From NCBI RefSeq assembly GCF_030811555.1, contig NZ_JAUSQZ010000001.1, positions 3,345,241-3,409,240 of the forward strand: a DNA stretch of 64,000 bases, written 5' to 3'. A program made the translations under genes and the position numbers. The DNA is from Kineosporia succinea. Its GTDB lineage: Bacteria; Actinomycetota; Actinomycetes; Actinomycetales; Kineosporiaceae. The notes beneath the pieces were generated by a model. The model saw only the letters and a list, made by a program, of their open reading frames with translations. It was not told where the DNA came from and searched no databases. Of this stretch, positions 10,495 to 29,727 are shown piece by piece (the first letter of the stretch is position 1; the number at the start of each line of letters is the position of its first letter).

Positions 10495-10524
10495 TTGACG
10501 CTCGCGCGGGCCACCGGGTAGCCT
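10495..10524 (+). promoter_or_regulatory. Promoter of the rpsL-rpsG-fusA-tuf operon
   Basis: TTGACG (10495-10500) and TAGCCT (10519-10524) are separated by 18 bases, a near-consensus actinobacterial housekeeping promoter. The start would be near 10531. Confidence 0.75.
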
Positions 10525-10530
10525 CACAGT

Positions 10531-10771
10531 TCGTGCCCGAGTTCTCTTGGGCTGCCGCGCGTGCCCTCCTGACGGTCCGGAAGCTGTCAGCGTGCGATAC
10601 GCGAGCGAAGCTCCCCACCCCGCGGGACGTCGCCGGGCGAAATCGCGAAGACCGCGACACGCCCGAGCGCGGGGTACGGCCGCAAGGCTGTGAGCGACGA
10701 TCCGGACACGGCAACACCAGCACCACCCCGTAAGTCAGGTAGCACAAGCGAGCAGAGAGTTCGGAGAATCG
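10531..10771 (+). other. Long 5' leader of the rpsL operon
   Basis: These roughly 240 untranslated bases include the element at 10653-10679 (core GCGACACGCCCGA) that recurs in the rpsJ and rpsM leaders. Its arms at 10663-10668 and 10674-10679 can pair around a 5-base loop, with one A-A mismatch. The 81 bases between the terminator and promoter (10396-10494) hold nothing recognisable. Confidence 0.5.
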
Positions 10772-11146
10772 GTGCCCACGATCCAGCAGCTGGTCCGAAA
10801 GGGCCGGCAGGACAAGGTCAGCAAGACCAAGACCCCTGCTCTCAAGGGCAGCCCTCAGCGCCGCGGCGTGTGCACGCGTGTGTACACGACCACGCCGAAG
10901 AAGCCGAACTCCGCTCTGCGTAAGGTCGCGCGCGTCAAGCTGACCTCCCAGATCGAGGTCACGGCGTACATCCCGGGTGTCGGTCACAACCTGCAGGAGC
11001 ACTCGATCGTGCTCGTGCGTGGTGGTCGTGTGAAGGACCTTCCCGGTGTCCGTTACAAGATCATCCGCGGTTCGCTCGACACCCAGGGCGTGAAGAACCG
11101 TAAGCAGGCTCGCAGCCGTTACGGCGCGAAGAAGGAGAAGAGCTAA
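10772..11146 (+). CDS. rpsL: 30S ribosomal protein S12
   Basis: This 124-residue decoding-centre protein starts at GTG with CGGAGA upstream. K43 ([10 protein letters not shown]) and K88 ([11 protein letters not shown]), where streptomycin-resistance mutations fall, are both wild type. First gene of the str operon; its stop overlaps the rpsG start (TAATG), so the two are translationally coupled. The long leader may carry regulation. Confidence 0.98.
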
Positions 11147-15308: not shown

Positions 15309-15339
15309 TTGGTCAACGGCGGGCAGGGTCTGGCACACT
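15309..15339 (+). promoter_or_regulatory. Candidate rpsJ (S10 operon) promoter
   Basis: TTGGTC (15309-15314) and CACACT (15334-15339) are 19 bases apart, with transcription starting near 15346. The spacing is slightly long, but this is the only good candidate in the 590-base gap. Bases 15161-15308 hold nothing recognisable. Confidence 0.4.
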
Positions 15340-15345
15340 GGACAG

Positions 15346-15705
15346 GTTGCTCGCGCACCGTCGAGTCCGCTGCGCCCTTCACGGGGCCCGGATTGACCGG
15401 CACCGGGCAGTCACGACTGCAACATCGGCCCAGCCCCTGGTCCTCGTCGAAGACGTCGGACGATTCTGGGCCACGAACGCGACACGCCCGACCTCGGGGG
15501 TCGGTGTTCGCCAGCCCGACCGAAGTAGGGGTGTCAGCGTCGGATGAAGACGTGAAACACCAGTAAGGCCAGAAGTTGCACAGCATTCCTCGTTGAATGC
15601 GAGGCCCGGGACGCGGAAGCGGCCCGGGTGGACCACAGACAGTGCCGAAGGCAGTAATCGGGCCCCAACGCCTGTCGACCAAGCGAAAGAGAGCGCAGAG
15701 ACGCC
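15346..15705 (+). other. Structured 5' leader of the S10 operon
   Basis: This leader of about 360 bases has no convincing gene. It contains the shared element at 15478-15504, where CCGACC (15488-15493) pairs perfectly with GGTCGG (15499-15504). Further on are two overlapping alternative stems: GCATTC/GAATGC (15583-15588 and 15595-15600) and CCTCG/CGAGG (15588-15592 and 15600-15604). A CCCGGG stem with inner CGC/GCG and a GGAA tetraloop spans 15605-15628. Confidence 0.5.
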
Positions 15706-16014
15706 ATGGCGGGACAGAAGATCCGCATCCGGCTGAAGGCCTACGACCACGAGGTCATCGACAGCTCGGCGCGCAAGATCGTCGACACGGTCGTTCGGAC
15801 GGGTGCGACGGTCGCGGGGCCGGTGCCACTGCCGACGGAGAAGAACGTGTTCTGCGTCATCCGTTCGCCGCACAAGTACAAGGACAGCCGCGAGCACTTC
15901 GAGATGCGCACGCACAAGCGGTTGATCGACATCATCAACCCGACGCCGAAGACGGTGGACTCGCTGATGCGGCTTGACCTGCCCGCCGGCGTGGACATCG
16001 AGATCAAGCTCTAG
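15706..16014 (+). CDS. rpsJ: 30S ribosomal protein S10
   Basis: This 102-residue protein of the 30S head is also NusE, which pairs with NusB in antitermination. It has the normal length and typical blocks: [30 protein letters not shown] and [16 protein letters not shown]. The ATG has GAGAG-type sequence upstream. First gene of the S10-spc cluster; rplC starts 14 bases after its stop. Confidence 0.98.
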
Positions 16015-29152: not shown

Positions 29153-29346
29153 ACCAGCCCCGCAGAAGCACGGCACCACTGCACAGCATCTGAGAAAAAC
29201 AGCAGCGCACGTCTCTGAGGCACCGGGCGACACGCCCGACCTCGTGGGGCGACACCCCCGGACCACCGGGCCGGGGACCCCTCAGCTCCATCAGGGGGAA
29301 TGCCGCTGCTCCACACCCGGTACGAGCAGAGAAGAGAACTCCTGCA
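29153..29346 (+). other. Leader-like spacer before rpsM
   Basis: This 194-base gap contains the third copy of the shared ribosomal-leader element (29227-29252). It also has two small stems with similar cores: CGGGC/GCCCG (29224-29238) and GGGG/CCCC (29046 offset corrected: 29246-29249 with 29255-29258). A purine-rich ribosome site lies at its end. No clear promoter is seen. Confidence 0.45.
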
Positions 29347-29727
29347 ATGGCACGTCTCGTCGGAGTCGACCTCCCGCGCGAAAAGCGTCTCGAGGTCGCC
29401 CTCACCTACATCTTCGGCGTCGGCAAGACCCGCGCCAAGGAGACGCTCGCGGCCACCGGCCTGAGCGCCGACCTCCGTGTGCGCGAGCTCAGCGAAGAAG
29501 ACCTCGTCAGCCTGCGCGACTTCCTCGAGGGCAACTTCAAGCTCGAGGGTGACCTGCGCCGCGAGGTTGCCGCCGACATCCGCCGCAAGGTCGAGATCGG
29601 CTGCTACGAGGGCCTGCGTCACCGTCGCGGCCTGCCGGTCCGCGGTCAGCGCACCAAGACCAACGCTCGTACCCGCAAGGGCCCGAAGCGCACCGTTGCC
29701 GGTAAGAAGAAGGCCGGCAAGAAGTAG
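29347..29727 (+). CDS. rpsM: 30S ribosomal protein S13
   Basis: This 126-residue head protein contacts P-site tRNA. It begins [21 protein letters not shown]'s family start, with GVGKTRAKE, the [20 protein letters not shown] block and a Lys-rich tail. The ATG is preceded by GAGAAGAGAA. rpsK follows after 66 bases. Confidence 0.97.

Follow-up and report, generated by a model that had tools for sequence, protein, structure and literature searches.

What is the short sequence that recurs in front of three ribosomal protein gene clusters within 64,000 nt of the Kineosporia succinea genome (the window, meaning the whole stretch of DNA analyzed), and at what level is it read? The answer that we hold with considerable confidence is that the repeated element is a double-stranded DNA site for the regulator WhiA, lying in the transcribed leader, and not an RNA hairpin. 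Throughout the actinomycetes such a site precedes the main clusters of ribosomal protein genes, and further copies are carried by phages whose hosts are probably actinomycetes. The pertinent features are:

10655..10679, plus strand: WhiA-type site in the rpsL (str operon) leader, a 25-nt unit that departs from the class consensus at 3 positions
10656..10663 and 10670..10674, plus strand: parts of the rpsL leader site, its core GACACGCC and its second block CGGGG
15480..15504, plus strand: WhiA-type site in the rpsJ (S10 operon) leader, core at 15481-15488, a perfect 25-nt consensus (E 2.3e-7 with model R1, described below)
29228..29252, plus strand: WhiA-type site before rpsM (alpha operon), core at 29229-29236, 2 mismatches
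10772..11146, plus strand: rpsL (S12)
15706..16014, plus strand: rpsJ (S10)
29347..29727, plus strand: rpsM (S13), identified by a protein motif
10495..10500 and 10519..10524, plus strand: predicted SigA promoter of rpsL, TTGACG and TAGCCT, with its start near 10531
15334..15339, plus strand: CACACT, predicted -10 of the rpsJ promoter

An earlier, sequence-only reading had drawn attention to a 27-base element shared by the three leaders, and the sharing is real. The 13-mer GCGACACGCCCGA is present exactly at 10654-10666, 15479-15491 and 29227-29239, all on the plus strand, and the core GACACGCC is common to all three copies (the positions first given agree with these, the 27-mers starting one base before the exact 13-mers). 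In dinucleotide shuffles of the window the exact 13-mer has a mean of 0.01, with three or more copies in 0 of 100, and in the 8.07-Mb genome its exact occurrences number three, with none on the other strand, all three being the rpsL, rpsJ and rpsM leader sites themselves. With up to two mismatches allowed, 11 places in the window compare with 11.5 by chance, so only the exact 13-mer is significant there. At one mismatch the genome has 51 places (31 forward and 20 reverse), similar to the 26 and 29 of a reversed-pattern control, so that the loosened 13-mer alone is without signal.

As had been anticipated, the element recurs upstream of translation operons in related genomes, chiefly in the rpsL and rpsJ leaders of the class. 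Leader regions were taken from 60 class genomes, one or a few per genus, and the sample was chosen without reference to the element (rpsL was looked for in 148 genomes of the class and matched in 134). With up to six mismatches the full unit, CGACAYRCCCGRNNNCGKGGG(TCGG), was found in 53 of 60 rpsL leaders, 22 of 46 rpsJ leaders and 0 of 19 rpsM leaders of other genera in these sampled actinomycetes, the antisense control for the same search giving 7 of 347; in rpsG, tuf, fusA and rplN leaders it appeared at this threshold in one fusA case alone, with five mismatches. All 6 genomes of the window's genus have the copy before rpsM, and 11 of 13 genomes of the family have the exact 13-mer. A strict 25-base pattern occurs in 152 of 296 genomes of the class and in 0 of 225 genomes of the phylum outside it; a locus titled Acidimicrobiales (L193) has a strict match before rpsJ. 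In the rpsJ leaders of other classes of the phylum (81-350 nt) the core is found in 1 of 28, which is about chance.

Among the strict matches listed for named genomes (at least 120, in at least 118 stretches), 71 are before rpsJ, 46 before rpsL and 3 elsewhere, with the sense orientation in all 117 of the rpsL and rpsJ leader matches listed. A relaxed pattern gave 33 places in 16 genomes, 25 of them in the ribosomal leaders concerned and 8 elsewhere (six of the eight seen as loci). With a sequence-only model, R1, scored on up to 150 first-look candidates per genome in 10 complete genomes, the 16 sites at E of 1e-5 or below are without exception these ribosomal leaders; the next match has an E of 0.004, the weak rpsL site of one genome (G094) 0.005, and another genome (G118) has none below 0.19. 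In 20 tuf-rpsJ gaps, the five with the unit, the window's included, are of at least 273 bases and the 15 without it of 81-263, from which the rpsJ-leader site seems to occur with S10 operons having space for a promoter of their own.

The element had been placed some 122-133 bases after the predicted transcription starts in the first two operons; the values now obtained are about 124 nt for rpsL and about 134 nt for rpsJ, both relative to predicted promoters (a soft promoter score ranked other places for rpsJ, and nothing good before rpsM). A strict promoter, TTGAC-N17-20-TANNNT, is predicted within 300 nt upstream of the unit in 40 of 54 rpsL leaders, against 0.1 in shuffles, and between unit and gene in 0 of the 54. 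The end of the predicted -10 box lies 21-199 nt (median 113) before the unit in rpsL leaders, and from the end of the unit to the gene the distance is 28-150 nt for rpsL and 45-204 nt for rpsJ, spacing so variable as to be ill suited to a blocker of the ribosome site. A different promoter-like motif, (C/T)GGCA(N)(A/G)CT, frequently preceded by GATT(G/C)GCC and differing from the TTGACC promoters of rpsL, is seen in 15 of 23 site-bearing rpsJ leaders (L095-L144; 15331-15339 in the window).

What is conserved is sequence, and the hairpin reading fails. In 78 units (54 rpsL, 23 rpsJ and 1 rpsM) positions 0-11 (CGACACRCCCGA) and 15-18 (CGKG, present in all 78) are nearly fixed, picking of these leaders by similarity to the whole unit having a bearing on that conservation; the flanks are free, save for a mild G at -1 and -3. 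The arms are as first drawn, perfectly paired in the rpsJ copy and imperfectly in the rpsL and rpsM copies, but the compensatory changes looked for in them were not borne out: the 5′ arm is almost invariant, the 3′ arm drifts, and they vary without keeping pairing. For 49 distinct sequences 75.9% of cells are paired versus 76.0% in shuffles, with covariation of 0.055 versus 0.057. With pairing at the shuffled expectation and no pairs predicted by RNAalifold on the units, the constraint is on sequence. Folded in context, the drawn hairpin is dominant in 15 of the 78 leaders. Two alternative hairpins were also considered; of the three, two were formally counted, without covariation, and the third was assessed by folding only.

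The unit, GACACRCC followed at fixed spacing by CGKGGG, fits a published core plus second motif, and on this ground we assign it to WhiA. By ChIP and footprinting GACAC is the WhiA consensus in Streptomyces, according to the main text of PMC3781837, which also gives lower expression of translation targets in a whiA mutant and, for rpsJ in S. venezuelae, a ChIP peak 75 bp upstream of the start codon. Of 14 named Streptomyces rpsJ loci, 13 have the end of the element 59-76 nt upstream of the start (41 in the remaining one), so its centre is near the place of that peak. According to the main text of PMC11701221, GAYACRCY, which the core matches exactly, is upstream of rpsJ in the majority of whiA-bearing species, Actinobacteria being among the groups named, with a clade-specific second motif downstream of it, as the second block here is downstream at fixed spacing. 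In that account the HTH domain binds the core and the HEN domain the second motif, repression needs both, and ATP weakens the second contact in vitro; the HEN domain gives no footprint alone and adds to affinity in the main text of PMC3781837. A WhiA HTH was found in 61 of 61 genomes tested, including the window's (G000:C1:7991530-7991778), and with the protein in every one its co-occurrence with the element does not discriminate. Of 14 control genomes, 3 gave a match in the same search; Bacillus subtilis, to which the papers ascribe a WhiA, gave none, so the search misses some.

WhiA, a helix-turn-helix plus LAGLIDADG-type regulator, would thus read the core GACACRC(C) with its HTH domain and, probably, the invariant block CGKGGG about one helical turn downstream with its HEN (homing-endonuclease-like) domain. 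The site would be inside the transcribed leader at a variable distance downstream of a SigA promoter, and a bound WhiA monomer would alter transcription of the str and S10 operons (the alpha operon too, in the window's genus), with the effect following growth or energy state. We infer that WhiA binds these particular copies and that its HTH and HEN domains divide the actinomycete site between them. The effect on the actinomycete operons may be positive; with repression in Mollicutes and apparent activation in Streptomyces it could go either way here.

The rpsJ WhiA site of Mycoplasma gallisepticum and other bacteria, as presented in the main text of PMC11701221, is alike in its GAYACRCY core, its downstream second motif, its place after the transcription start and its operon. 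It differs in the second block, which is GTTGT there and CGKGGG here, and in distance, the mycoplasma rpsJ being repressed by WhiA from a site 22-40 nt after the start and the rpsL sites here being a median of 113 nt after the predicted -10; the present element is also at rpsL and, in one genus, at rpsM. In that same main text WhiA had hardly any effect from a site moved to about 1 kb downstream of the promoter, for which reason its authors favor action on initiation, and given their model the many sites here at 100 nt or more after the predicted -10 count against WhiA. So do the sense-only placement in host leaders (117 of 117 listed), which RNA would also explain, the 8 of 33 relaxed-pattern matches outside these leaders, and the near-chance occurrence of the core in the rpsJ leaders of other classes. 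Upstream of infA, which is among the strong ChIP targets, neither of the two Streptomyces examined has a sense core. The Streptomyces WhiA/WhiB sites of PMC3781837 and PMC4850268 share the GACAC core, the protein and rpsJ as one of the ChIP targets; most of those targets have GACAC only, with no further motif by MEME (PMC3781837), whereas these have a second invariant block.

WhiA sites at rpsJ are already in print. The main texts of PMC3781837 and PMC11701221 do not mention rpsL; a published rpsL or rpsM site, a long actinomycete consensus or phage copies were not found in the main texts of the papers cited here, and among the open-licence papers listed none has, judged by its title and the opening of its abstract, phage or rpsL sites of WhiA as its subject. 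The leader survey PMC7247131 has 0 occurrences of rpsJ in its main text, and a single rpsL-like string is in the L13 row for Bacteroidia. To have an exact, extended WhiA sequence for the ribosomal operons bears on what beyond GACAC selects targets: the main text of PMC3781837 counts 15,116 GACAC in the chromosome and about 240 transcription units selected, and puts the further determinants of specificity as an open question. Control of ribosome supply by WhiA, shown in mycoplasmas, is suggested to reach the str operon and to run widely through the class Actinomycetes.

The strict pattern is also found in viral contigs, in at least 120 stretches with at least 135 matches; 112 of the 120 stretches listed are below 50% GC, and a few matches, mainly GC-rich ones, may be due to chance. 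The low-GC stretches listed (1.08 Mb) hold 126 strict copies plus 255 further CGACACGCC copies, against 2.7 expected by composition, the latter counted separately since the stretches were chosen for a long match (some are near-copies of each other). At least one further core copy is present in 86 of these 112, and more than one strict copy in 10. Relatives of one viral protein appear in 589 phage records, of which 459 are from phages of Mycobacterium, Streptomyces, Arthrobacter or Microbacterium, and 9 of 10 viral proteins match PHROG families (four named, e.g. tail fibre, ribonucleotide reductase, glycosyltransferase); on these relationships the contigs are phages whose hosts are probably Actinomycetes. 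A second, tail-fibre-like protein has just 10 partial matches, one to an Actinomycetia phage and others to Pelagibacter and Limnohabitans phages. No long site is present in 14 kb of Streptomyces phage LilMartin, nor in the full 129 kb of Actinomycetia phage DSL-LC01, even though two genes of that phage are annotated as WhiB-family.

Distinct viral occurrences, among the matches listed, comprise 111 of the long form and 222 core-only. TTGAC is 1-4 nt from 57 of those 222 core-only sites, in 43 of them at exactly 2 nt, and within 12 nt of 0 of the 111 long sites; TANNNT follows at 17-20 nt in 21 of 56 TTGAC-adjoining core-only sites listed. Set against crude ORFs, 140 viral copies among those listed include 44 with opposite-strand ORFs on both sides, 48 whose next ORF is on the same strand and 16 inside an ORF. 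That core-only sites adjoin TTGAC, with the core in both orientations to the crude ORFs, favors a DNA-level site. By a sequence motif, 12 of the 120 viral stretches listed have an ORF that we take to be WhiB-like, 3.5-4.4 kb downstream of a WhiA-type site and on the same strand (L371, L377, L391, L399, L413, L426, L434, L438, L451, L458, L480 and L481); a WhiA HTH motif was found in none of the 120.

It is conceivable, as a tentative proposal, that there are two grammars of WhiA site: core plus CGKGGG at ribosomal operons, read by both WhiA domains, and core-only at the -35 box, with a WhiB-like partner. Actinophages would use both, at a density of several copies in each 10 kb of regulatory DNA, and some would have a WhiB-like gene of their own, tying their transcription to a host growth or energy regulator. 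The position of core-only sites against the -35 is in keeping with a complex of WhiA, WhiB and SigA, as proposed in the main text of PMC6282962; the single common regulon reported there, with each protein needing the other for binding by ChIP, is evidence against sites that work without WhiB. If the viral copies are WhiA sites, phages would be exploiting WhiA, and their many natural variants would help to show how the site works. Between the genes of these phages (L364-L483) there are also, by eye and beside the WhiA-type sites, what are presumably CRP-like (TGTGA...TCACA), LexA-like (GAACNNNNGTTC) and DnaA-like (TTATCCACA) sites; CCTGTGGAT occurs 80 times versus 3.7 expected.

The sequence-only reading had suggested a ribosomal protein, an antitermination factor or a small RNA as the binder, all here replaced by a DNA-binding protein, WhiA. 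A hairpin or linear leader RNA signal for a ribosomal protein, antitermination factor or other RNA-binding protein is unlikely. In E. coli and Firmicutes, leaders of the same operons are structured RNAs bound by ribosomal proteins (L4, S4 and S7 types), alike in leader position to the element here, which is without conserved structure. Sense-only matches among those listed in named genomes, the lack of a strict promoter between site and gene in host leaders, and the perfect 6-bp arm pair that the rpsJ form can fold would all suit an RNA, as would the finding of no complement to the unit's 5′ half further down rpsL leaders (rpsJ leaders being not clear-cut); against these are set the lack of covariation and of RNAalifold pairs, the few leaders in which the drawn hairpin is dominant, the match to no curated Rfam family, and viral copies often oriented against neighboring ORFs. 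Mimicry of rRNA, or complementarity to it, gave at best 5 mismatches of 21 with the genome's own rrn operon, the same as shuffles. For a trans-acting small RNA, which is exceedingly improbable, the test was a weak one, a listing of anti-motif places in six genomes; tolerated changes in the first 12 nt are mostly transitions, compatible with wobble pairing, but G/T at position 17 would fit no fixed partner.

Equally slight is the chance of a conserved leader peptide, DTPD, in which a change at the variable position of the core would leave the residue the same (ACN, Thr): starts and stops in that frame are no better than elsewhere, an in-frame start within 150 nt being found in 45 of 78 leaders versus 43 and 40 in the other two frames. 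The preference already expressed for a nucleic-acid element over a DTP(D/E) peptide thus stands, as do the reality of a shared site and its recurrence in relatives; the hairpin and the proposed classes of binder do not. A DNA site for another conserved actinomycete DNA-binding protein is distinctly unlikely. Such a protein could account for an invariant stretch longer than the published WhiA core, and for the absence of a second block at most WhiA targets, but it is WhiA whose published core is matched exactly and WhiA that occupies rpsJ in vivo.

Separate from the WhiA-type site before rpsM is a structured leader. At 29256-29321 of the window a hairpin CCCCGG(loop)CCGGGG has a loop, ACCGGG, that pairs with the CCCGGT lying some 30 nt upstream of rpsM (29316-29321). 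We take it to be perhaps a leader of the alpha-operon S4 type; Rfam gave no match in the window, this leader included. A pseudoknot score of at least 13 is reached in 16 of 25 rpsM leaders (14 with this pairing, 2 with another) versus 2.0 in shuffles, the window scoring 12, and the pseudoknot is kept in related leaders with compensatory changes (CGGAGG/CCTCCG, TCGGAG/CTCCGA and CGGGAG/CTCCCG).
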